A stretch of DNA of 64,000 bases from a virus. The DNA is taken from the IMG/VR virus record IMGVR_UViG_3300044679_000029, positions 1-64,000 of that record. The stretch is one strand, 5' to 3'. How positions within the stretch are numbered: the stretch's first letter is position 1; the number at the start of each line of letters is the position of its first letter. The notes below the pieces were generated by a model. The model saw only the letters and a list, made by a program, of their open reading frames with translations, was not told where the DNA came from and did no database searches. Shown here in pieces: positions 21,500 through 40,688 of this stretch. The position numbers and the translations under genes were made by a program.

Positions 21500-23287
21500 T
21501 TAATACTGCCCGTCTTCGCCTTCGCCAAATTCTGTACCAATCGCAAGCGGCCCCATAGGATTAAGCGAGTGACCGTTTCCTATTGTTCCTTCCTCGGCGC
21601 CATGAATGATAGACTCGCGAAGGAATCTATGCCCTAATTTGCCAAGCCAATCTGGAAATAGTAACGGCCCTTGAGCTGCGGGCTTCATAATATAGCTAAC
21701 TTGTGGCGGGTTAACAGCAACCTTAACGTGGTCAAAACCATTGCGTGACAATAATTTTATAACACTAGGAGTAATGGTTGTCCCGGCAGTAAAATGTAAA
21801 TAGTCTTCGCCTAGAACCTTACCGTCTGCATCCTTGATAGCAGTAGAACGGGCGCCCTCACGTAGTCTATCGCGAAGATGGTTGATATCAATAATGTCGC
21901 CCGGCGTGTTCGCTCCAGACGGGTCGTGTTCAATCACACCGAACCGAATAGCCGACCGAGCAGCAAGTTCAAGATGCCGTGGGTCAATAGAAATACCGTT
22001 CGCCTTATACGCATGTATGAGATTATCGGCGAGGTTCTTACGGCCTGCACCAATACCCTTATACTTCACGATTTCGTTAGGCTTTAAAATACCTTCAGAT
22101 AGCGCATCACCAGGTTCCATAACGTCATGTTTCTTAACAGTGACTTCTCGGTCTGGTGGTACGTAGTGTCCTTCAGCCTCCACGAATACGTATTTACCAC
22201 CCTGCGGCGCCGATTCGATATTTGTAATCTTGCCATGAAGTTTAGATAAGATAGCCCCGAAGGCGAACGACTCTGGTACCTCAAACAACTGTCGAATGCT
22301 CTTAACCCCCGACGGCGTAGACTTACTGGATAATAGTTTAACAGAGTGCTTTGAGGATAGCTGCGTCTGTACGATCGGTTCAGTAATAGCCTGAGCGGAC
22401 TGTACTCCTAGATTCGTACCCACTTGAGGCGGTTGAGAGCGTTCGTCTAGTCCCCAACACTTCTGGCATATGCCTGGTGCAGTACAAGTTATGGGTGAAC
22501 GCACGACAATAGGTTTATCTAGCTTCTTAAGGTGCATCGCTATATCGTGTGTAATTAGCGACCCTGCCTTATACTTGCCGGCGTCATGCGCTAGGTAGCG
22601 ATCTACAATCCATGAGTCGTGTGGGTCTTGTACAATACCGTTATTAGTTCCGCAATCGATATGGGAAACTACTTGGTTGTTCATACTGGCAGTTATTAGC
22701 TTATTGAGCTCACCGGGTAGTGACACAGCCAATTTCCCTTGTATAGCGTTTTGGCGAGATTCGTTCATAGCGGCAAACGAGTCAGCTGGGCTAATACCCT
22801 CAGAGTACGACTTACTGATTAGCCATGGAATTGGGTTGCCAGAAGCGTCTGTAGCTAAAACAGGCGTAGAATTTATCTTCATTAATTGCGCAAACGACCC
22901 GCGGCCACCAGACCTCGCCATAAGCTGCATATCATTTTTATGGTTTTGTGTAACTTCTAACATTTTTTCTTGGGCTTCTCCCAAGATTTTTCTTTTTTCA
23001 GACGCGGTTTCGGCCTTATCAAATCTGTGAATAAACGGAGCAAGCGCTCGCTCTTTCCCTGACGCCGGAGATATATCGTCCAAACCAACGGATATACCAG
23101 AGTCTGTAGCTACAGCATCGCCAAACCGCTTGAGTTTAGTTACGCATTCCACATACGCTGAAGGGTCATTCTTAGCAATATCTAATAGAACGCGCCTAAG
23201 CTCTTTCGCATCCACCGGGCCATCATGGAATTTGTAGCCCCTAGGTAAGCACGACTGGACAAGAGCTTGTCCGAGTGTATTAGCCAT
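21500..23287 (-). CDS. RNA polymerase beta-prime subunit, C-terminal half, 595 aa
   Basis: Aligns by eye with bacterial beta-prime from just after the catalytic domain. It starts with a match to the TTVGRALL region (MANTLGQALVQSCLPRG), then G-I-S-V-G-L-D-D-I, the bridge-helix/trigger-loop block (M-A-R-S-G-G-R-G-S-F-A-Q), D-C-G-T-N-N-G, the zinc-site cysteines (ITCTAPGICQKCWG) and G-V-Q-S-A-Q-A-I-T-E-P. The trigger-loop histidine of E. coli appears replaced by asparagine (A-M-N-E-S-R). The first half of beta-prime is fused to beta in the gene at 27758-32125. ATG at 23287 is preferred; it starts two bases after the upstream stop. Confidence 0.9.
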   Translation of the reverse strand: MANTLGQALVQSCLPRGYKFHDGPVDAKELRRVLLDIAKNDPSAYVECVTKLKRFGDAVATDSGISVGLDDISPASGKERALAPFIHRFDKAETASEKRKILGEAQEKMLEVTQNHKNDMQLMARSGGRGSFAQLMKINSTPVLATDASGNPIPWLISKSYSEGISPADSFAAMNESRQNAIQGKLAVSLPGELNKLITASMNNQVVSHIDCGTNNGIVQDPHDSWIVDRYLAHDAGKYKAGSLITHDIAMHLKKLDKPIVVRSPITCTAPGICQKCWGLDERSQPPQVGTNLGVQSAQAITEPIVQTQLSSKHSVKLLSSKSTPSGVKSIRQLFEVPESFAFGAILSKLHGKITNIESAPQGGKYVFVEAEGHYVPPDREVTVKKHDVMEPGDALSEGILKPNEIVKYKGIGAGRKNLADNLIHAYKANGISIDPRHLELAARSAIRFGVIEHDPSGANTPGDIIDINHLRDRLREGARSTAIKDADGKVLGEDYLHFTAGTTITPSVIKLLSRNGFDHVKVAVNPPQVSYIMKPAAQGPLLFPDWLGKLGHRFLRESIIHGAEEGTIGNGHSLNPMGPLAIGTEFGEGEDGQY

Positions 23288-23289
23288 GA

Positions 23290-23592
23290 TTAAACGTTTC
23301 CGAGATGTCCCAACATCATGGGGTCGTAATTTAGATCGCTTTGGCGAGAAAGTGCGTCCATGCCCGAGGGGTCTGTTGGCTTTCCCCACATGCTCTGCTC
23401 ACGATCCTTAGAATCTTCTTTCGTCTTATTATCAGGACCAGCATGAATATCCATTTTATGCTGCTTAAACAAACTCGCTAGCGCCGAAGCTGAATCCTTA
23501 CTCTGCGCGGGCCTGTTGCTAAAGGCGCGGATATCCACGCCTGCAGCGGTCTTAGCAGCCATCGATCCAATGACGTAAGCGAGCTTATTCAT
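23290..23592 (-). CDS. Small hypothetical protein, 100 aa
   Basis: Begins MNKLAYVIGSMAAKTAAGVD and continues as a hydrophilic, probably disordered chain. It contains the K-L-A and K-T-A motifs of the virion cluster. Coupled between the RNA polymerase half-gene and the 81-aa membrane protein. Function unknown; it could accompany the polymerase or be a virion protein. Confidence 0.5.
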   Translation of the reverse strand: MNKLAYVIGSMAAKTAAGVDIRAFSNRPAQSKDSASALASLFKQHKMDIHAGPDNKTKEDSKDREQSMWGKPTDPSGMDALSRQSDLNYDPMMLGHLGNV

Positions 23593-24479: not shown

Positions 24480-24488
24480 TGGTATAAG
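24480..24488 (+). promoter_or_regulatory. Phage-type promoter element TGGTATAAG, leaderless start
   Basis: Exact 9-mer. TATAAG ends at 24488 and the ATG of the next gene is at 24497, only eight bases later and without a Shine-Dalgarno sequence, so the message would start at or next to the AUG. Confidence 0.65.
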
Positions 24489-24496
24489 AGTTTACT

Positions 24497-24709
24497 ATGC
24501 TAACAGTCAGATGTTCAAATAATAGATACGCGCCAGACGCCTGGTACAGTATATATGACAGATCTACTTCTATGTTTGTTTTACAAAAATTCGTTGAGTT
24601 TAATGATGGGAAGGAGTCTGAAGAGTATTGCAAAGCTATAACTGAGATGTGGCAGATGTTATACCCTACTTACAATAACCTACGGAAGGACATCTTTATT
24701 TTAATATGA
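24497..24709 (+). CDS. Small hypothetical protein, 70 aa
   Basis: First gene of a plus-strand operon that runs to 27641. Aromatic-rich, mixed alpha/beta; pattern W-Y-S-I-Y-D-R, then Y-C-K-A-I and M-L-Y-P. It looks like a diverged relative of the next two genes, which have the same length, an aromatic motif near residue 15 and a C-terminal helix plus strand. Its start appears leaderless. Function unknown. Confidence 0.55.
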   Translation: MLTVRCSNNRYAPDAWYSIYDRSTSMFVLQKFVEFNDGKESEEYCKAITEMWQMLYPTYNNLRKDIFILI

Positions 24710-27641: not shown

Positions 27642-27826
27642 AAAAGCAAACCAGTAAAACTAAGCAACTCAAAAACAAATTAGTTAAACTTCAACAGCAA
27701 CTTAAGGTAGCAGCCACCAAGTCTAAAAGATGGGCCCAGAAACTTGGGCCTTCTTTTTTAGCCTACTTCGACAGGATCTCCAAGCTGTGTTGTACCTCTG
27801 GCATACGAAGCTTTAGCGTCCTCTAA
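27638..27826 (+). CDS. Doubtful small basic ORF across the terminator
   Basis: A GTG overlapping the previous stop opens a lysine/glutamine-rich helical frame (62 aa). It reads through the hairpin at 27733-27750 and into the antisense of the RNA polymerase gene. The first 40 residues look like a real small basic protein, but the end may be spurious. Confidence 0.25.
   Translation: MKKQTSKTKQLKNKLVKLQQQLKVAATKSKRWAQKLGPSFLAYFDRISKLCCTSGIRSFSVL
27733..27760. terminator. Convergent terminator
   Basis: GGCCCA (27733-27738) pairs with TGGGCC (27745-27750) and is followed by TTCTTTTTT on the plus strand. It lies between the small-gene operon and the stop codon (27758-27760) of the convergent RNA polymerase gene. 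Confidence 0.75.
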
Positions 27827-30800
27827 GTTCTTAAACTTTGTGGTTCGTTTACCCGATTCGTGTTCGCACGTCGCTTTATAAACGCCAATTACAGCCTCAT
27901 GCGAGGGCTGGACCATTAGTCCTTTTGTGCGGTTATGGAGAATAAGATTACTCGTCGTCATACGTTTGGCCTCTTCGACGGCTGCGGGTGTTACGGGAAC
28001 ATGTAGAGAAACTGCGTCACCATCATAATCCATCGACATACCAGCATCGGCCCAACCGCTAGGGACCCTAACCGTCTTACCAGAAATGGGTATAGCCCAG
28101 TTTCCGATTATATTATATTTATGCAAAGATGGTGCGCGGTTGAATAGTACTGGCCGCTCCTTTGTTTCCGCTATCAGCGCGTTTCTAGCCGCGGGGTGTT
28201 GGTCTTCAATCATTTTTTTAGCTTCAAGAGCCGTACGCCCACCTCGAATAAGTCGGCGGCTTATAAAGGGTTCCATCATGCCCCACAACATTTGTTCCGG
28301 AACCCCGAGTTCGTCCATACCCAGTTGATTGTCAGGGGCTACTGTAGCTCGCCCGCTTAGATCTAGATTCTTCTTAATTATTTTTGACTGAAAGAAGCCA
28401 TACTTTGGCGAGCCCTGTCCGGCGATTAAACTCAAAAAACCCTTAACACCGCGAGACGCGTTCTGCGGACTTACGGGTTCTCGTAAACCAAATAGAGCCG
28501 CTACACTATGGTCTAAATGTTCACGGGCATTTTCTTTATCTTTATCGGTTAAATCTTTCGACGCAACTAAAGCGTCATTGGCCAAGAACACATCTCTATA
28601 AAGACTATTAGCGTCTGAAATCTGCATACGTCCGCCATGTCCGGGTAGTATCGGCCTCATGATAGGCGGAATAACTGGAATTTTACGCATGATATACGCC
28701 TTGTCAGGAGTAAGATTATTTTCCTTCAAGGCATTAATGTATTTCAGTTGCTTTACAGCATCATCGAATTTTGTACCCTTAAGACCGGGAAGTTGAAGTT
28801 TTAGTGATCTGGACCGGGAACTTAAATCGATATCACTTAATAGCTTTTCGACATGCTTAGCGCCGTGTTCTTTCAGCATTGCGTCCATGCCGCCGGAAGT
28901 AAGTCCAAGAAATCGGCGGGCTGAATCATGAAATACAGGATTTAGTATGGGCTCTGATAATTGTATGTGTGACCACTTGGTGCCGCTTAGACCACCAGTT
29001 GTGTTAGGGTCAAAGAAACCACCTTCTTCTGGTTTTAAATCTTTTGCACGAACGAAATCTTGCGTAGTAATTTTACCTGAGGATAATTCATTAACGTCAT
29101 TATCCGTCATAGGTGATAGTAATAGATTATCATCTGTTTTATTTACCTTAATTCCAGCGCCCTGTAACATCGCGATAAACTTATTATACGCAAACGAAGA
29201 CTTCAGTTGTGGTAGTGGGAGTCCAAGACGATAGCGCTGCCAAAAGTCGTCATTCTTTTGGCTCCTGAGGACGGCGTTTTCCTTTAATATATTTCTGGCG
29301 TTATGGGCCAATAAACAACTTACCTCCATACGCCCCAACCCCTTAGAACCCTCTTCACCACCACGAAGCGGTTGCTCATTAACATCATATCCTGGTCCAA
29401 TACCGTGCGCGCTATAGTTACTCTTTGTTGTTTTAAAAAGTTTGAACATATACATGGGACCTACATTGATGCCAGGAATCTTCTTATCTGTAACAGGATC
29501 GTATATAGTTTCTTTATCTGATAATCCCTGTTCACGCAAAAGTCTCTTGGCGTACTCGACGTTATCTTTGCCGGAGAAACTCTCGACAGCGATAGGCTTA
29601 CCTTTAGCTTGAGCAGCTTTGGCTACGGCCATCTCTATAACCTGTGCTGGATTAATACGCGAGATGACGCCTGCTGATGTCAAAAGAACATCTATAGGAT
29701 TACCTTTAGCATCACGTGGCATACGATCGTCTGGTATAATAGCAGAGATAACACCTTTGTTCCCGAATCTCCCGGAAAGCTTATCACCGAGCAACATCGG
29801 CTCTTCAGTCGAGACTGTAATCATTGTTCGCTTTGGGTCTTTTTTAACATCGATGATTTTGGCTGGAAATTCTCCGTCCCACGTTAAAGACGCATCTCGA
29901 TACGGCTTTAGCAAGGACTTACTAAGCTTACCCAACATGGCTTCTTGCGGCGATGGTTCTTTCTTACTCAAACTAACAAGCAGGGGGTCACCTGGTTGAA
30001 TAATTTTACCCTTTTTAATCACACCATCGTCGTCTAACGAATCGTAATTATCGGCCGTATACTTATTACCAAAGTAAGCCTTATGGCTATTCTTGCCAGC
30101 GCGCGTATTCGCGTCTGCTTCAAAGACGTGTTTGTACATACCCAACGAGGTTAGTTTTTTAGCCGCACCCTCTGATATAACGATACCGTCATTTGAGTTC
30201 AGTCCGTTGTAGGCCATGAACGCAACGTTCATATTTTTACCTAATGCTAACTTACCGTCTTTAGTAAAGTTAGATTCACCAAGTTGTTGGTTCTCCTCAA
30301 CGTGGTCGCCCTCTTTAACTATAAGATCGTGGTGTAAATAGGTCTTAGACGCGAGCGGGAAATCTGTATAATACGGGACTTTAACCAATTCTTCTTTTTT
30401 ACCCTCAGCGCCATGTTTGACGTGTGACGGAGCTATATAGATAAAGTCTTTATCGATCTTAGTGATCTTACCTTTGACCGGAGAGTTTGGTGTAGCTTGT
30501 TCGCCAAGCTCACCTTCCATCGTCCGACCTTTACGCCATGAAGCAACTTGCACCAAAGGCTGCTCGCGCTCTTTCAGCGGCAATGCCTGAGACACCATTT
30601 TGCTACCCATGATAAGACGGTTACCTTGCGACGATTCCGGAAAAGGTACAAGATTAGTCGCTGTGCTGTAAAGGAAATTAGAATGTGGAATTATAAATTC
30701 TACTTCTGAGACGGGCTTTGAATAAATAACGCCTTTATGTAGCACATCCACTTTACCACTCTTGGGAAAGTCTTTCTTTGGGAACGCAACCGCGTGCTTA

Positions 30801-32125
30801 TATAACTCAGCAGCCGAGATGTGTTCGAGCTTGCCGGTTTTCCGATTGAGGACCACAGTATACAAATTACCAGCATCATCTCTGAAAGCACTAATGGTAG
30901 CACGAATATCTACACCAACTTTTCCGGATTCTGGGGTACGTATAGGGTCAAGAATACCAAACTGCGTAGGATGTAACTCACGGACTTCGTCTGGCACAGC
31001 AGATTCAGATGCGATGCCACCTTCACCCATTAGAGTTACGCGATTAGCCGTGTCGGATATCTCCATGGGGTTGATCTGAGTTGGGATACTTGACACATCA
31101 GACGTAGTAATGAAACTACGAATGTGATCTGTGAACATAGACGGAGGTACTACTTTAGAGATAACCGGGTCATGACCGGCGTGGTCTAATTTAAACGCGA
31201 TCTTTCTTTTTAGTTCTTTAGCAGCGAATCCAAGATTTTCGCGTAAAAAATCTGTCCCACTATGGTAAGTCTTAAACGCGATAGAATTTCTATCGTCGAT
31301 TTCTTCTGCGTTTTTAAAGATATTTAGAAGTTTGTGCGATGCCTTAAGCATGACTTCGGGCGTTACTTTATCAGCAGGAATACCCAAAGTAGTCTGATTA
31401 ACCTCTGGATCCATCACGGTTCTACTGTAATACTCTTTTATAGCTGCTATCTTACCGGCGTGGTCTAGCGGCTCTTGCGCGAAATCTGGAATTAGTTTTT
31501 CGTAAAGTTTGGTAATTACGCCTTCAGTCTTCTTGCCGTGTTTTTCGTTATTCTTATCTGCCAGAGCAGCGCCCCATGCTTTAGCGATGTCTGCGTGCGG
31601 TACGCCTAAGGACGTTAATATGGGGTACAGCGGAATCTTAGATGTTTGAAACTCAACATTAAATACGCCTGATTCAGGTTCCATGCCAATACGGAAGTTA
31701 CGACCTTTTGCAAGATTGAAACTCGACTCTAATTCTTCATTCCCGCGTCTACGTGAATAAACACCGGACTTAAGACGCAGCTGATTAGCGACTGAATATT
31801 CGTTACCCCCTACTACGTAAGTTTGTCTTTCAGTCATCCACGGAGCGTTTAATACTGTAACCTGTTTTGAGCGCTCTAAGACTTTACCGTCCTTATCCTT
31901 TAGAATTAGATTAGCTTTAATGGGCTCATAAAGTGAACCGCCAGACAAAAGAGCATCCTTCTGTTCGGATGTACTAAAGTCCTTTTCATGTACAGTAGGA
32001 TTTTCTAGGTGAATGCTAAACTTGGAACCAGCAATAGGAAAAGCTGCCTGGATACCCTCCAGGAGTTTTGTTCTTAATTGCTTGCGGTGTTCTTCGGCCG
32101 GAAGAGATAGGGCTTCGAGAATCAT
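27758..32125 (-). CDS. RNA polymerase beta / beta-prime N-half fusion, 1455 aa
   Basis: One uninterrupted chain. The first about 950 residues are a bacterial-type beta subunit: N-R-L-I-M-G-S-K-M-V-S-Q-A-L-P, G-K-N-M-N-V-A-F-M-A-Y-N-G-L-N-S-N-D-G-I, G-D-K-L-S-G-R-F-G-N-K-G with its active-site lysines, and G-G-E-E-G-S-K-G-L-G-R-M-E-V near the C-terminus. It then continues without a linker into beta-prime: L-S-G-R-A-T-V-A-P, R-P-V-L-F-N-R-A-P-S-L-H-K-Y and the catalytic M-D-Y-D-G-D-A with all three Mg-binding aspartates. It ends soon after S-N-L-I-L, where the 595-aa protein at 21500-23287 takes up. In beta, the Glu of the N-x-E-D-S-I motif is Asn. The start at 32125 is leaderless-looking. Confidence 0.92.
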   Translation of the reverse strand: MILEALSLPAEEHRKQLRTKLLEGIQAAFPIAGSKFSIHLENPTVHEKDFSTSEQKDALLSGGSLYEPIKANLILKDKDGKVLERSKQVTVLNAPWMTERQTYVVGGNEYSVANQLRLKSGVYSRRRGNEELESSFNLAKGRNFRIGMEPESGVFNVEFQTSKIPLYPILTSLGVPHADIAKAWGAALADKNNEKHGKKTEGVITKLYEKLIPDFAQEPLDHAGKIAAIKEYYSRTVMDPEVNQTTLGIPADKVTPEVMLKASHKLLNIFKNAEEIDDRNSIAFKTYHSGTDFLRENLGFAAKELKRKIAFKLDHAGHDPVISKVVPPSMFTDHIRSFITTSDVSSIPTQINPMEISDTANRVTLMGEGGIASESAVPDEVRELHPTQFGILDPIRTPESGKVGVDIRATISAFRDDAGNLYTVVLNRKTGKLEHISAAELYKHAVAFPKKDFPKSGKVDVLHKGVIYSKPVSEVEFIIPHSNFLYSTATNLVPFPESSQGNRLIMGSKMVSQALPLKEREQPLVQVASWRKGRTMEGELGEQATPNSPVKGKITKIDKDFIYIAPSHVKHGAEGKKEELVKVPYYTDFPLASKTYLHHDLIVKEGDHVEENQQLGESNFTKDGKLALGKNMNVAFMAYNGLNSNDGIVISEGAAKKLTSLGMYKHVFEADANTRAGKNSHKAYFGNKYTADNYDSLDDDGVIKKGKIIQPGDPLLVSLSKKEPSPQEAMLGKLSKSLLKPYRDASLTWDGEFPAKIIDVKKDPKRTMITVSTEEPMLLGDKLSGRFGNKGVISAIIPDDRMPRDAKGNPIDVLLTSAGVISRINPAQVIEMAVAKAAQAKGKPIAVESFSGKDNVEYAKRLLREQGLSDKETIYDPVTDKKIPGINVGPMYMFKLFKTTKSNYSAHGIGPGYDVNEQPLRGGEEGSKGLGRMEVSCLLAHNARNILKENAVLRSQKNDDFWQRYRLGLPLPQLKSSFAYNKFIAMLQGAGIKVNKTDDNLLLSPMTDNDVNELSSGKITTQDFVRAKDLKPEEGGFFDPNTTGGLSGTKWSHIQLSEPILNPVFHDSARRFLGLTSGGMDAMLKEHGAKHVEKLLSDIDLSSRSRSLKLQLPGLKGTKFDDAVKQLKYINALKENNLTPDKAYIMRKIPVIPPIMRPILPGHGGRMQISDANSLYRDVFLANDALVASKDLTDKDKENAREHLDHSVAALFGLREPVSPQNASRGVKGFLSLIAGQGSPKYGFFQSKIIKKNLDLSGRATVAPDNQLGMDELGVPEQMLWGMMEPFISRRLIRGGRTALEAKKMIEDQHPAARNALIAETKERPVLFNRAPSLHKYNIIGNWAIPISGKTVRVPSGWADAGMSMDYDGDAVSLHVPVTPAAVEEAKRMTTSNLILHNRTKGLMVQPSHEAVIGVYKATCEHESGKRTTKFKNLEDAKASYARGTTQLGDPVEVG

Positions 32126-33811: not shown

Positions 33812-34036
33812 ATGGGCAGAAAGCTTTTGAGGTTTCTCGACGAGTTGAACGCAAAATCAGCGGACCGTCTCCCCGAACACACGATAGCAAGATTCATCCG
33901 GGAAGCAGTTGGGACTGATTCACCCGTCGATAATGCAGAGCTTGATGCACAGCTGGATCAGCTGATTGGGCTTGCAAAGCAGGCCCGAAATCAGCTGAAA
34001 TCTAAGCACAAGGAAAACGCAGAATATGAGAATTAG
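33812..34036 (+). CDS. Small helical protein, 74 aa
   Basis: GGAAGG precedes the ATG. The protein is helical, with a leucine-rich centre ([17 protein letters not shown]) and a charged C-terminus, suggesting a short coiled coil. It overlaps the uS12 start by 11 bases, so uS12 translation is coupled to it. Confidence 0.5.
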
Positions 34037-34439
34037 TCAGTTGGTCCGTTTGGGCCGAAAGAAAGTCCACAAGAAGAGCAAGTCGCCTGCATTGATGGGC
34101 AGCCCACAACTCAGCGGGACTGTTCTCCAAAGCAAGGTCATGAAGCCAAAGAAGCCGAATAGCGCAAATCGTCACATCGCGCGCATCCGACTGAGTAATG
34201 GCCGTGAAGTCACCGCTTACTGCGGTGGAGAGAACTCCAACGTGCAAGAGCACGCTCACGTTCTCGTTCGCGGTGGCCGAGTCCCGGATTTGCCGGGTGT
34301 GAAGTATCACATCGTACGCGGCGCTTTGGATTATTCCGGCGCCAATTGCATGAGCAAGTGCACCGCTGAACCCGGCAACGCTGGTGACAAGAAGATGCGT
34401 AACCAGGGCCGGTCGAAGTACGGTGTGAAGGCTCATTAA
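34026..34439 (+). CDS. rpsL: Ribosomal protein uS12, phage-encoded, 137 aa
   Basis: Residues 1-103 align without gaps, by eye, with E. coli S12: shared P-K-K-P-N-S-A at 41-47, [15 protein letters not shown]-x-N-V-Q-E-H, [20 protein letters not shown] and terminal R-S-K-Y-G-V-K. uS12 lines the decoding centre of the 30S subunit. K42 (streptomycin-sensitivity position) and D88 (the RimO methylthiolation site) are kept, but K87 is Pro. About 16 extra residues with C-x3-C (residues 104-126) are inserted before the C-terminal tail. ATG at 34026 overlaps the preceding gene. A large hairpin follows the stop. Confidence 0.92.
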
Positions 34440-34444
34440 CAGAT

Positions 34445-34499
34445 TGACAAACAAGCGGACCGTAGGCTTAGAAGTAGCCATCGGTCCGCTTGTTTGTCA
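34445..34499. repeat. 18-bp perfect hairpin after uS12
   Basis: 34445-34462 (TGACAAACAAGCGGACCG) is the exact reverse complement of 34482-34499; the 19-base loop has its own GGCT/AGCC pairing. No T-tract follows. Possible terminator, RNA-processing or mRNA-stability element for the uS12 message. Confidence 0.75.
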
Positions 34500-34536
34500 T
34501 GTTGTCTTGTGGACACACTAACCAAGGAATAGCAAT

Positions 34537-36232: not shown

Positions 36233-36247
36233 TTTCGGGTCAAAATC

Positions 36248-36256
36248 TGGTATAAG
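36248..36256 (+). promoter_or_regulatory. Phage-type promoter element TGGTATAAG before the ncRNA
   Basis: Exact 9-mer (AATC-TGGTATAAG-ATATTG). If transcription starts about six bases after TATAAG, the RNA begins at about 36262, exactly where the closing helix of the structured region starts. Confidence 0.7.
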
Positions 36257-36261
36257 ATATT

Positions 36262-36765
36262 GATCCGCGAATCATCGCTTCGCGATGCATGAGGCGGTAG
36301 ATCAATCCTGGTCTGGATAGTTCCAGGACCTTGGGTCTATCGCCTCACGTTAACTCTGGGCCTGTAAGCGTGTGTGCCAGCACAGTATGAGAACATCCGG
36401 TCGTTACAGCCGGTTAGGGACCAGTGACCCCCGGACATTGGTCCGGGGATAGGCCTGATGTAACCTCCGTCGCTGGCTTGGCGACGAACCTGAAATGCGT
36501 GCTCATTTGTGGGCCGCTGATTGTAAGGGACAAGTCAAACCACTTGGCTGCGGGTCGCCACCGCGGTGTTTCGAGAATTATAAGTGGGCCAGGGTTTCTC
36601 GTTACCTGGCACTTTTCAAACTGCCCGGCCGAAACGAGACCGGTTTAAAGTGTTCGCGAACTTCAGATCAGTTGGGACTGAACTAGTTCCCAGGTCAAGT
36701 CGCGATCTAAAAATCTCCTACAAAAAGCCCGATCCTGCAAGACCGGGTAATAAAAAGGAGTAGCC
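36262..36765 (+). ncRNA. Large structured non-coding RNA, about 450-500 nt
   Basis: No credible ORF, but dense helices: long-range closing pair 36262-36270 with 36700-36707 (one bulge); 12-bp stem 36290-36301/36336-36347 capped by 36306-36311/36323-36328; multibranch domain closed by 36393-36397/36457-36461 and holding the perfect 8-bp stem 36429-36436/36441-36448 with ATTG loop; 36468-36473/36481-36486; AAGTG plus CCAGG arms 36582-36593 with 36605-36614. The run ends in a weak CCCG/CGGG hairpin (about 36728-36747) inside CTCCT/AGGAG arms. Size and phage/tRNA neighbourhood recall ornate phage RNAs such as ROOL or GOLLD, but I cannot match it to them. Confidence 0.75.
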
Positions 36766-36848
36766 TTGCAGGGCGTTTAACGGGATGACGTAAATCGGGC
36801 GCGCGAGGCTGATACCTTGCGATGCTGACAGAATACGAAAACTCTCGT

Positions 36849-36895
36849 CAGGTTTGTGCTCTGGACCCATGGGTGGACGCCGGGGCACAAACCTG
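36849..36895 (+). repeat. 11-bp hairpin in the leader of the repeat-gene family
   Basis: CAGGTTTGTGC (36849-36859) pairs with GCACAAACCTG (36885-36895) across a 25-base loop. The GCACAAACC motif recurs in front of every gene of the family that follows. Confidence 0.7.
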
Positions 36896-36941
36896 CTGTG
36901 TTCTTCGCAGCACAAACCCGTAGCAAGAAAGAGGCAATCAC

Positions 36942-37127
36942 ATGAGAACCGTTGAGTACTACTCCAAACTGAACGCGATCTGTGCTGAGTACTGCCCCAA
37001 GCTGGACGCGTGCGACGCTGAGTCCTGCTCCAAACTGAACGCGCTCAAAGCCGAGTTCAAGTCCAAGCTGGACGCGCTCGACGCTGAGTCCCACCTCAAC
37101 CAGCCCGCCGTCAGCACAAACCCGTAG
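36942..37127 (+). CDS. Hendecad-repeat protein, copy 1, 61 aa
   Basis: Built of 11-residue units of the form x-x-(S/P)-K-L-(N/D)-A-(I/L)-x-A-E. The hydrophobic spacing of 11 favours a right-handed or straight amphipathic helix. Units vary at the first two positions and at the residue before A-E; cysteines occur in three. The tail H-L-N-Q-P-A-V-S-T-N-P is constant in the family. Leader CAAGAAAGAGGCAATCAC, with AGAGG as the ribosome-binding site, is identical in all copies. First of five tandem paralogues downstream of the structured RNA. Confidence 0.7.
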   Translation: MRTVEYYSKLNAICAEYCPKLDACDAESCSKLNALKAEFKSKLDALDAESHLNQPAVSTNP

Positions 37128-37145
37128 CAAGAAAGAGGCAATCAC

Positions 37146-37382
37146 ATGAGAACCGTTGACAAATTCAATTCCAATGAGTACTGCTCCAAGCTGGACGCGA
37201 TCAATGCTGAGCGCGACTCCAAGCTGGACGCGATCAATGCTGAGTACTTCTCCAAGCTGGACGCGATCAATGCTGAGCGCGACTCCAAGCTGGACGCGAT
37301 CAGTGCTGAGCGCGACTCCAAGCTGGACGCGCTCGACGCTGAGTACCACCTCAACGAGCCCGCCGTCAGCACAAACCCGTAG
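37146..37382 (+). CDS. Hendecad-repeat protein, copy 2, 78 aa
   Basis: Begins MRTVDKFNS like copies 4 and 5, then five nearly perfect 11-residue units (SKLDAINAERD and variants) and the H-L-N-E-P-A-V-S-T-N-P tail. The 33-base DNA units are almost identical, so copy number could change by slippage or recombination. Leader identical to the other copies. Confidence 0.7.
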   Translation: MRTVDKFNSNEYCSKLDAINAERDSKLDAINAEYFSKLDAINAERDSKLDAISAERDSKLDALDAEYHLNEPAVSTNP

Positions 37383-37400
37383 CAAGAAAGAGGCAATCAC

Positions 37401-37817
37401 ATGAAAACCTTTGTTGACGAAATCAAGTCCAAGATGAACGCGTTCAGTGCTGAGTACTTCTCCAAGCTGGACGCGCGCGACGCTGAGTACAAGTCCAGGC
37501 TGGACGCGATCAGTGCTGAGTACAAGTCCAAGGCTGAGTTCAAGTCCAAGCGGAACGCGATCAATGCTGCGTACGACTCCAAGCGGAACGCGATCAACGC
37601 TGGGTACTTCTCCAAGCTGAACGCGTTCAGAGCCGAGTGCAGGTCCAAGCTGAACGCGCTCAGTGCTGAGTACGACTCCAAGCTGAACGCGATCAACGCT
37701 GGGTACTTCTCCAAGCTGAACGCGTTCAGAGCCGAGTGCAGGTCCAAGCTGAACGCGCTCAGTGCTGAGTACTTCCCCAAGCTGGAAGCGCTCATTGCTG
37801 AGTACCACCTCAACTAG
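37401..37817 (+). CDS. Hendecad-repeat protein, copy 3, 138 aa
   Basis: The longest copy, about 11 units, with a different N-terminus (MKTFVDEIKSKMNAF). A 99-base (three-unit) segment is duplicated exactly (units at about 37590-37673 recur at 37689-37772), showing recent internal expansion. It ends at an amber TAG after H-L-N, where copies 1, 2 and 5 have CAG or GAG and continue eight codons more. Confidence 0.7.
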   Translation: MKTFVDEIKSKMNAFSAEYFSKLDARDAEYKSRLDAISAEYKSKAEFKSKRNAINAAYDSKRNAINAGYFSKLNAFRAECRSKLNALSAEYDSKLNAINAGYFSKLNAFRAECRSKLNALSAEYFPKLEALIAEYHLN

Positions 37818-37859
37818 CCCGCCGTCAGCACAAACCCGTAGCAAGAAAGAGGCAATCAC

Positions 37860-38024
37860 ATGAGAACCGTTGACAAATTCAATTCCAAGCTGTACGCGCT
37901 CGGTGCTGAGTACGACTCCAAGCTGTACGCGATCAACGCTGAGTACAGATCCAAGCTGAACGCGATCAATGCTGAGTACTTATCCAAGCTGAAAGCGCTC
38001 GACGCTGAGTCCCACCTCAACTAG
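37860..38024 (+). CDS. Hendecad-repeat protein, copy 4, 54 aa
   Basis: Begins MRTVDKFNSKLYALGAEYDS, four units, then H-L-N and an amber TAG at the same point as copy 3. Has the same leader and start context as the other copies, so it should be translated at the same level. Two units use tyrosine (SKLYA) where others have N or D. Confidence 0.65.
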   Translation: MRTVDKFNSKLYALGAEYDSKLYAINAEYRSKLNAINAEYLSKLKALDAESHLN

Positions 38025-38066
38025 CCCGCCGTCAGCACAAACCCGTAGCAAGAAAGAGGCAATCAC

Positions 38067-38348
38067 ATGAGAACCGTTGACAAATTCAATTCCAAACTGA
38101 ACGCGATCAGTGCTGAGTCCAGGATAAACGCGATCAGTGCTGAGTACGACTCCGAGCTGAACGCGATCAATGCTGAGTACTGCTCCAAGATGAACGCGCT
38201 CAGTGCTGAGTACTGCTCCGAGCTGGACGCGTGCGACGCTGGTCACTGCTCCAAACTGAACGCGCTCAAAGCCGAGCTCAAGTCCGAGCTGGACGCGCTC
38301 GACGCTGAGTCCCACCTCAACCAGCCCGCCGTCAGCACAAACCCGTAG
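38067..38348 (+). CDS. Hendecad-repeat protein, copy 5, 93 aa
   Basis: Begins MRTVDKFNSKLNAISAES; about seven units, one shortened by several residues (S-R-I-N-A-I-S-A-E), then the full H-L-N-Q-P-A-V-S-T-N-P tail. K-to-E changes in several units (SELNA, SELDA) make this copy more acidic than the rest. Confidence 0.7.
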   Translation: MRTVDKFNSKLNAISAESRINAISAEYDSELNAINAEYCSKMNALSAEYCSELDACDAGHCSKLNALKAELKSELDALDAESHLNQPAVSTNP

Positions 38349-38572: not shown

Positions 38573-38861
38573 TCTTCTAGACTTTCTCCCGGGCTAAGGT
38601 CATGCCTGGTAATGGCCCTAATTAGTCAATGCGGGCTAGAAAGCGGGAATCCCATGAAGTGGACCTAGCGATCCGACAATCTAATGCATAGATTAGCACT
38701 AGAATAACTCTGAGAAAACTGTGAGCCCACAAGAAGATATCTTCTTGTATATACGTTTATAACCCCCCAATCTGACAGAAATTGTCGGAACGGCAATGGG
38801 AATAAACGTGTATACGTGAGGATATCTTCTTGTGGGCAATTAAGATTTGTCGGTTTTTAGG
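38573..38861 (+). other. Non-coding region with hairpins and nested inverted repeats
   Basis: No ORF is supported. CTTTCTCCCG (38582-38591) pairs with CGGG-ct-AGAAAG (38632-38643), enclosing an AGG/CCT hairpin. Then comes CTAAT/ATTAG (about 38681-38696) and the large inverted repeat at 38725-38837. It may carry a second small RNA, a terminator or a replication or operator site. Confidence 0.5.
38725..38837. repeat. 17-bp inverted repeat with nested palindromes
   Basis: GCCCACAAGAAGATATC (38725-38741) is the exact reverse complement of 38821-38837. The left arm also forms an 18-bp perfect palindrome (38730-38747). Between them, 38748-38760 and 38800-38815 (GTATATACGTTTAT versus AATAAACGTGTATAC) form a second, nearly perfect inverted repeat. 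The whole can fold into a 113-base cruciform or RNA stem directly upstream of the portal promoter. Confidence 0.8.
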
Positions 38862-38936: not shown

Positions 38937-40688
38937 ATGCCTTTATATACCGACGCAGTTCAAGGGAGCTTATTTCCCTCTAGTAACAGTCAACCCAATC
39001 CTTTATTTACTTATCTCCAGGGGTTTATTCCCAGAAAACTCAAGGACCTATTTAGGTGGTTGGAATATCTATCCTATAACTCAACGCATATCTATGCCGG
39101 ACTATATAAGCTCGCGGATTATTCGGTTACAGACGTTCAATACTTAACCGATTCCACCCAGGAAAAAACTCGGCATAAAGATTTACTTGAGAAGACGTTA
39201 CACATTAAATCGTTACTTAAAGCAGCGTCACGCGACCGCCTTATATACGGAAATAGTTTCATATCTCTATACATGCCGTTTATCCGCAATATGGTGTGCA
39301 CTGGTTGTAAGATTAAGCGCAATATAGATACTGTCGACTATAAGTTTAAGTGGAAGAATCTTACGTTTAACTGGCTTTGCAAGGAATGCGGCCAATCAAA
39401 CATGACTGGCGTCGACGATTTTGAGGATATCAAAGTCCCCAACCATAAGCGTATTAACGTTATCCGGTGGGACCCCAAGCTGATAGACATCGATTATAAT
39501 CCCCTAACCGGTGAAAGCACAATCTACTACACGATTCCAAAAGAAGTTAAGGAGAAGATTCGTGCTGGTAATAAGCATCTTCTAAATTCGATGCCTGTTG
39601 GATTTTTAAAGGCCGTCAAAGAAGATCGTCTATTTAAGTTCGACAGAGGTCAAGTCTTCCATATGAAGATCGATGCACCAGCCGGTATCGATTCTCAGTG
39701 GGGCTTCTCACCGTTACTAGCAACTATTCCTAGCTTCCTGTATGTGGCCGTATTACGTAAGGCCAACGAAGCCATCGCATTAGATTTCGCTGTACCTCTT
39801 CGTATTCTTCACCCGGCACAATCGTCTTCTAACGCTGATCCGGTGTCGACTATTAACTTAGGTAACTGGACTGAGAAGACACGCGAAAATATTCGTAAGT
39901 GGCGTCGAGACCCCTTGCACATCATGTTTGCGCCTGTGCCATTAGGAATAACTCAGATGGGTGGGACTGCAAAATTGCTCTTAACTGCAACTGAGATTCG
40001 TGACGTAGAGGATAACATTATTACTGCTCTAGGTATTCCTCGTGAATTTATTTACGGCGGGATGACTATGACCGGGTCTAGCGTAACACTACGCATGTTA
40101 GAGAACCAACTTCTAACTCAGACCAAAGATCTAGAAGACTTAATGGGTTGGATTGACGACAAGTGTGCGACATTCTTAGGGTGGGGTAAGATACATACTG
40201 AGCTACTGCCGTTTAAACTTGTGGACGATGTTGCGCAAAAAAATGTTCTAGTTCAAATTAATCAAGTTAAACCGATTATTTCTGATACTACAATCGCAGA
40301 AGTCTTCGGCTACGATCTTAAGAAAGAGCGAAAGCTTAGAATGCAAGAAGCATTGGACGAGGCGCGCTTCCAGATGGAAATGCAGAAGAGCGTTTCTGAT
40401 ATACAAAATAACCTTGGCCAGCAAGCACGGACACAAGCGGGATCCGCACCGCCATATAATCCTCAGCAGATTGTACAACAGGCTGATCAACTCGTACAAC
40501 AGTTATCGGGACTCGATCACGGTTCCCGCAAATCTGAACTAGATAAACTAAAAAAAGAAGACTTCGTTCTATACGCGGTAACAGCGAAACGTCTTGAGGA
40601 CTATAACAATACTCAAACTCAGGCAGCCAAAAGTCAACAAACAGGTGGCGGACAACCGGCACCGCAACCGTCGGGCGGAGCAAAGTAG
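38937..40688 (+). CDS. Portal protein with zinc ribbon, 583 aa
   Basis: The DNA-channel ring protein of the head. Supporting features: the C-terminal wing/stem-like region with G-I-P-R-E-F-I-Y-G-G-M-T-M-T-G-S-S-V-T-L-R and a long helix (LENQLLTQTKDLEDLM), as in portals of large phages, followed by a Gln-rich disordered tail. An unusual C-T-G-C (C121, C124) and C-K-E-C (C148, C151) pair forms a zinc ribbon in the N-terminal third. AGGAAG precedes the start. Encoded far from, and opposite to, the terminase and capsid genes. Confidence 0.75.
   Translation: MPLYTDAVQGSLFPSSNSQPNPLFTYLQGFIPRKLKDLFRWLEYLSYNSTHIYAGLYKLADYSVTDVQYLTDSTQEKTRHKDLLEKTLHIKSLLKAASRDRLIYGNSFISLYMPFIRNMVCTGCKIKRNIDTVDYKFKWKNLTFNWLCKECGQSNMTGVDDFEDIKVPNHKRINVIRWDPKLIDIDYNPLTGESTIYYTIPKEVKEKIRAGNKHLLNSMPVGFLKAVKEDRLFKFDRGQVFHMKIDAPAGIDSQWGFSPLLATIPSFLYVAVLRKANEAIALDFAVPLRILHPAQSSSNADPVSTINLGNWTEKTRENIRKWRRDPLHIMFAPVPLGITQMGGTAKLLLTATEIRDVEDNIITALGIPREFIYGGMTMTGSSVTLRMLENQLLTQTKDLEDLMGWIDDKCATFLGWGKIHTELLPFKLVDDVAQKNVLVQINQVKPIISDTTIAEVFGYDLKKERKLRMQEALDEARFQMEMQKSVSDIQNNLGQQARTQAGSAPPYNPQQIVQQADQLVQQLSGLDHGSRKSELDKLKKEDFVLYAVTAKRLEDYNNTQTQAAKSQQTGGGQPAPQPSGGAK

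Follow-up and report, generated by a model that had tools for sequence, protein, structure and literature searches.

A long non-coding, hairpin-rich stretch between a phage promoter and a repeat-gene array: a candidate 5' leader

Background

ROOL and GOLLD are large structural RNAs of phages and prophages that form RNA particles. To our knowledge, very few large structural RNAs have been described from phages. ROOL and GOLLD are often located near tRNA islands (PMC12286853).

The locus described here lies in a window of 64,000 nucleotides (the whole stretch of DNA that was analysed), which is part of a 117,101-bp IMG/VR virus record. A non-coding stretch, called the leader below, separates a phage promoter from five small repeat genes. 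Like ROOL and GOLLD, the leader is non-coding, phage-encoded and about 1 kb from a tRNA gene. Unlike them, it has no Rfam match, is accompanied by one tRNA rather than an island, and lacks a covariation-supported multi-helix structure; two of its central sections fold at chance level. We would not classify it as ROOL or GOLLD. Bacterial and phage operons with long structured 5' leaders show the same order of promoter, hairpin-rich non-coding stretch and genes with Shine-Dalgarno sequences, and likewise no terminator was found between promoter and genes here. The stretch differs in that it matches no known riboswitch or leader family, and no alternative terminator/antiterminator pair was seen in it.

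Results

The phage genes and the genes of the region are as follows.

21500-23389, minus strand: beta'-like RNA polymerase piece (PF04998, E 2e-11)
27758-32125, minus strand: fused beta-beta' RNA polymerase
34026-34439, plus strand: ribosomal protein uS12, 137 aa (PF00164, E 8e-29)
36942-37127, 37146-37382, 37401-37817, 37860-38024 and 38067-38348, plus strand: five small repeat genes made of 33-bp units
38937-40688: portal protein, a relative of the one annotated in phage Arash
45844-46671: sigma-70-type factor

The phage also carries terminase and family A DNA polymerase genes. Among named phages, Salmonella phage Arash and Vibrio phages D69, D148 and D181 come closest (about 34% identity for portal and polymerase), and the nearest polymerases and portals within IMG/VR reach about 50% identity. 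No relative of the polymerase was found in GTDB genomes. The beta'-like piece is a separate gene from the fused beta-beta' protein, and the RNA polymerase of this phage seems to be divided between two genes.

In the relatives where both genes were mapped, the portal gene directly precedes the polymerase gene; here the two are 6-7 kb apart. The island between them contains the leader, the uS12 gene, a tRNA-Leu gene (a single tRNA, about 1.1 kb upstream of the leader) and the repeat-gene array. Most of this stretch (33-38 kb) has a G+C content of 0.50-0.555, compared with about 0.43 in the surrounding DNA, and its small ORFs are all without a relative among the related loci that were fetched. 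The island holding the leader and the array is rapidly changing cargo.

The phage uS12 matches S12 chains of the PDB (E-value about 1e-35) and is about 50% identical to bacterial S12, with an insertion near its C-terminus. No copy of uS12 was found in 50 related phage records. A survey of virus-encoded ribosomal proteins does not use the term "S12" in its main text (PMC6375957), and the ribosomal proteins named by a second survey, S4, S1, S21 and L7/L12, do not include uS12 (PMC7162821). This gene may be a more remarkable find than the leader, and merits separate study. A long hairpin (GACAAACAAGCGGACCG...CGGTCCGCTTGTTTGTC, 34440-34500) lies directly 3' of it, and the segment 34401-34600 is among the most structured parts of the whole window on both strands. 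Further downstream, the non-coding gap before the portal gene contains an inverted repeat (38725-38837) with 36-nt arms, 89% complementary, and a 41-nt spacer, perhaps a terminator, an origin or a recombination site.

The promoter and the leader are located as follows.

36248-36256, plus strand: phage promoter TGGTATAAG, of the extended -10 type with no -35 element seen, identified by its enrichment, its consensus and the same motif in relatives
36262-36941, plus strand: long non-coding leader to the first repeat gene, supported by the lack of a coding signal, its length in comparison with 11 other sites and the failure to find a plus-strand terminator

The motif TGGTATAAG occurs in eight exact copies in the window, all on the plus strand, whereas 0.39 are expected from dinucleotide shuffles. 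Twelve sites of the genome yield the consensus AATsTGGTATAAGATA; ten of them have a G at motif position +14, and 11 have an A at +22. The predicted start, G36262, agrees with this consensus. The same motif is frequent in the intergenic DNA of Arash-like relatives; most of the nearer contigs examined, those of 50% identity, lack it. Arash-like relatives have T at +14 and G at +15 after the motif, in contrast to the G at +14 of this phage, and their leaders are mostly short (11-109 nt for most) compared with the 559-680 nt observed here. Being recurrent, found in one orientation, above chance and associated with a start-site consensus, TGGTATAAG is well supported as a genuine phage promoter, which would be read by the phage polymerase with its sigma factor. 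The initial annotation had placed a phage-specific promoter at the beginning of the region and a transcript start near 36262; both statements agree with the motif statistics, the start-site consensus, the occurrence of the motif in relatives and the presence of phage polymerase and sigma genes.

For another copy of the promoter (region 24480-24709), the start is predicted about 3 nt upstream of the start codon (ATG) of ORF 24497-24709, the mRNA of which is possibly leaderless. In a related phage (L059:6833-7792), an inverted repeat of about 577 nt with 80% identity adjoins a TGGTATAAG promoter, and the first ORFs found downstream of two promoters there share the N-terminus MSNETNTNTANNETDVGNTR.

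At nine of 12 intergenic promoter sites, a start codon with a Shine-Dalgarno sequence first appears 27-67 nt downstream. For the promoter at 36248 the distance is 559 nt (to a 33-aa ORF) or 680 nt (to the first repeat gene). The plus-strand ORFs within the leader (36424-36648 and 36495-36686) have negative coding scores, and six-frame fragments of 36233-36776 gave nothing of note against Pfam and PHROGs, nor any gene relic. These results confirm that about 500 bases here are without a credible gene. A 360-aa minus-strand ORF (36777-37859) was rejected as a real gene, since the plus-strand ORFs all carry one and the same Shine-Dalgarno leader, whereas none precedes the start on the minus strand. 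The high coding score of this ORF is circular, as it had been part of the training set. Other gaps were also rejected. A second gap headed by a promoter, at position 89734 of this genome, contains small ORFs, shows no excess stability (z +0.29) and is not a second copy of the leader; the gap in L059 is a large inverted duplication, and the conserved gap upstream of the portal gene in L086, L088, L091, L092 and L095 is a missed minus-strand protein gene.

Several hairpins are predicted within the leader RNA.

36272-36350, plus strand: strong 5' hairpin domain, predicted with a probability of 0.84-0.95 in most contexts
36429-36448, plus strand: 8-bp hairpin CCCCGGAC/GTCCGGGG (36429-36436/36441-36448), predicted probability 0.89-0.98
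36468-36517, plus strand: predicted hairpins 36468-36474/36480-36486 and 36497-36505/36510-36517
36715-36760, plus strand: hairpin 36715-36719/36756-36760 with an inner helix 36727-36734/36741-36748, not followed by a T run on this strand

The RNA 36258-36760 has a predicted folding energy of -192.4 kcal/mol (z -4.27, none of 100 shuffles as good), and over its whole the leader folds better than its shuffles (z about -3.4 to -6.5). The excess stability is concentrated mainly in 36262-36352 (z -5.2, none of 200 shuffles as good) and a few local hairpins. The segments 36421-36520 and 36650-36710 have z about -2.2, and 36711-36765 and 36766-36941 have z -3.4 and -2.8, respectively; 36353-36420 (z +1.7) and 36521-36650 (z 0.05) are at the level of shuffled sequences. 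The 5' domain is predicted to consist of the helices 36273-36278/36282-36287 and 36290-36303/36334-36347, the latter of 14 bp including two G-U pairs, with an inner hairpin at 36310-36330 (helix 36310-36317/36322-36330). The initial annotation had described at least six further stable helices, including a 12-bp stem and a perfect 8-bp stem. Six leader helices are predicted here, most with probabilities of 0.8-0.97; in a short transcript the hairpin 36468-36486 and the helix 36588-36593/36605-36610 decrease to 0.53 and 0.62, respectively.

At gathering thresholds, a search of the whole window with 4227 Rfam families returned no ROOL, GOLLD, OLE, raiA or other match. Even at E <= 5, neither these four classes, with which the initial annotation had proposed a comparison, nor any other family gave a meaningful match; what appeared were chance similarities to families of small sRNAs and microRNAs. 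No relative of the RNA was detected by blastn in phages and plasmids, by nhmmer on 97 related loci, by exact 18-21-mers in viral and genome collections (including a 21-mer in GTDB genomes) or by pattern searches. Covariance models of 36262-36352 and 36421-36520 found none in 50 related records (the sole extra match had an E-value of 0.117). Models built from a single sequence are weak, and near relatives may be missing from the collections, so that this absence of relatives is not proof. With no homologue found, the leader hairpins draw no support from covariation, and selection on them is at most presumed.

Such a lack of conservation anywhere is what would be expected if the leader were a largely idle spacer, that is, DNA with a raised G+C content that was recently acquired or has decayed, with hairpins due to chance or to DNA-level repeats and a promoter that serves the repeat genes. 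The G+C-richer island fits this explanation, and so does the fact that both strands fold equally well (36262-36710: z -3.4 on the plus and -3.9 on the minus strand). In a one-strand sweep the 460-nt stretch ranks about fifth among 64 evenly spaced stretches of the window, so that its excess stability is not unique. A long "leader" in the related phage L037, rejected as a comparable RNA because it lies within a helicase gene, served as a negative control: this coding stretch has z -7.8. Since coding stretches of this phage group match or exceed the leader, folding energy alone is no proof of a selected RNA. The spacer explanation nevertheless appears unlikely to us, given that 36262-36352 surpasses 200 of 200 shuffles, that the transcript start coincides with the most structured part, and that the stretch contains no gene relic.

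Two pairings compete for the 3' part of the region.

36262-36707, plus strand: proposed closing helix 36262-36270/36700-36707, doubtful, dependent on the 3' end chosen
36654-36705, plus strand: local hairpin competing with the closing helix, predicted with a probability of about 0.77 when the transcript extends to 36941

The initial annotation regarded the transcript start as the 5' strand of a long-range helix. The complementary sequences do exist (GATCCGCGA at 36262-36270 and TCGCGATC at 36700-36707, with one bulge), and the helix is predicted with a probability of 0.84-0.87 if the transcript stops at 36710 or 36765. However, the pairing is near chance and context-dependent, with three competitors. 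In the transcript to 36941 it is replaced by the hairpins 36266-36284 and 36654-36705, the best partner of the first 10 nt of the leader lies near 36548 and not at 36700-36707, and shuffled downstream sequence equals the pairing energy of these 10 nt in 4.9% of cases (p about 0.05). The closing helix is thus possible, but weak as evidence.

The plus strand from 36262 to 36941 yielded no intrinsic terminator; the one terminator-like site, 36747-36728, belongs to the minus strand. Hairpin-plus-T-run sites are present elsewhere in the phage, for example AGCCCGGTGTATACCGGGCTTTCTTTT directly before the 24480 promoter. As no plus-strand terminator was found before the array, read-through into the repeat genes is expected. 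The earlier proposal that the RNA is expressed together with these genes is therefore plausible, transcription itself being presumed.

These data bear on the possibility that the region encodes a free-standing, large structural RNA, some 450 nt long and reaching from 36262 to about 36710. Such an RNA would form a new class that works like ROOL and GOLLD, and would be freed by processing or by an unrecognised terminator. Its own promoter, a start that coincides with the 5' strand of a possible closing helix, the z-score of the whole (-4.27) and the tRNA-Leu gene upstream are in keeping with such an RNA. We consider it unlikely, as the closing helix is near chance and changes with context, the two central sections are not structured above chance, no terminator was found, and neither an Rfam match nor a homologue was obtained. 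The description of the region as a dedicated large structural RNA, perhaps of a new class, was thus not supported: its stability resides in few local hairpins and is matched by coding stretches, and the closing helix had been the main argument. Still less probable is the fuller proposal that a phage structural RNA of about 450 nt and of a new class, expressed from a phage promoter in a translation-related island with uS12 and tRNA-Leu, might have the ribosome as its target or be packaged together with it.

The repeat genes consist of 33-bp (11-residue) units of the type SKLNAINAEYD, and no relatives of the array were found. Each of the five genes is preceded by an identical ribosome-binding leader, CAAGAAAGAGGCAATCAC. 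The sequence GCACAAACC, located before the repeat genes, has seven copies on the plus strand and one inverted copy in the leader, whereas 0.39 are expected. A further predicted structure is related to it.

36850-36894, plus strand: predicted 15-bp hairpin, the 5' arm of which is complementary to GCACAAACC

These repeats raise the possibility of an antisense-type regulator, in which GGTTTGTGCT (36851-36860) and GCTGCGGGT (36547-36555) would pair in cis or in trans with GCACAAACCCGTAGC before the repeat genes and tune the array; the pairing 36547-36555/36916-36924 is indeed predicted with a probability of 0.66-0.79. But the element upstream of CAAGAAAGAGGCAATCAC (GCACAAACCCGTAG) is mostly the 3' end (STNP-stop) of the preceding unit, so that its repetition is accounted for by gene duplication. 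Being upstream of the ribosome-binding site, it would not mask this site, and no homologue was found that could show covariation. We regard antisense regulation as very improbable; the leader-array pairing allowed by the GCACAAACC copies may be a by-product of duplication.

Discussion

The locus has a promoter upstream, same-strand genes downstream (36942-38348) and no terminator found between them, as in an operon leader. Our preferred reading, which we hold to be evenly balanced between true and false, is that 36262-36941 is a long non-coding, hairpin-rich, cis-acting 5' leader of the repeat-gene operon. The promoter, the absence of coding, the length of the leader and the local hairpins above chance are observed; from these we infer transcription, read-through, processing and action in cis of what is an orphan in a fast-changing cargo island. 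The initial annotation was largely right in its observations and only in part in its interpretation.

As a cis-acting leader, the RNA would be transcribed from the phage promoter, probably by the RNA polymerase and sigma factor that the phage itself encodes, and transcription would continue into the repeat array. The 5' domain (36272-36350) and the later hairpins might then protect the 5' end, undergo cutting of the host RNase III type, or hold back translation of the repeat genes. The leader revealed neither a regulatory switch nor a masked ribosome-binding site.

If this is an ordinary long leader, the locus indicates that a good promoter and an excess of folding energy are insufficient to call an RNA ornate, since equal z-scores occur in protein-coding stretches of this phage group. 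If the leader proved to be a discrete RNA, it would join the very small number of large structural RNAs described from phages, and its place beside uS12 and a tRNA gene would make a link to translation testable.
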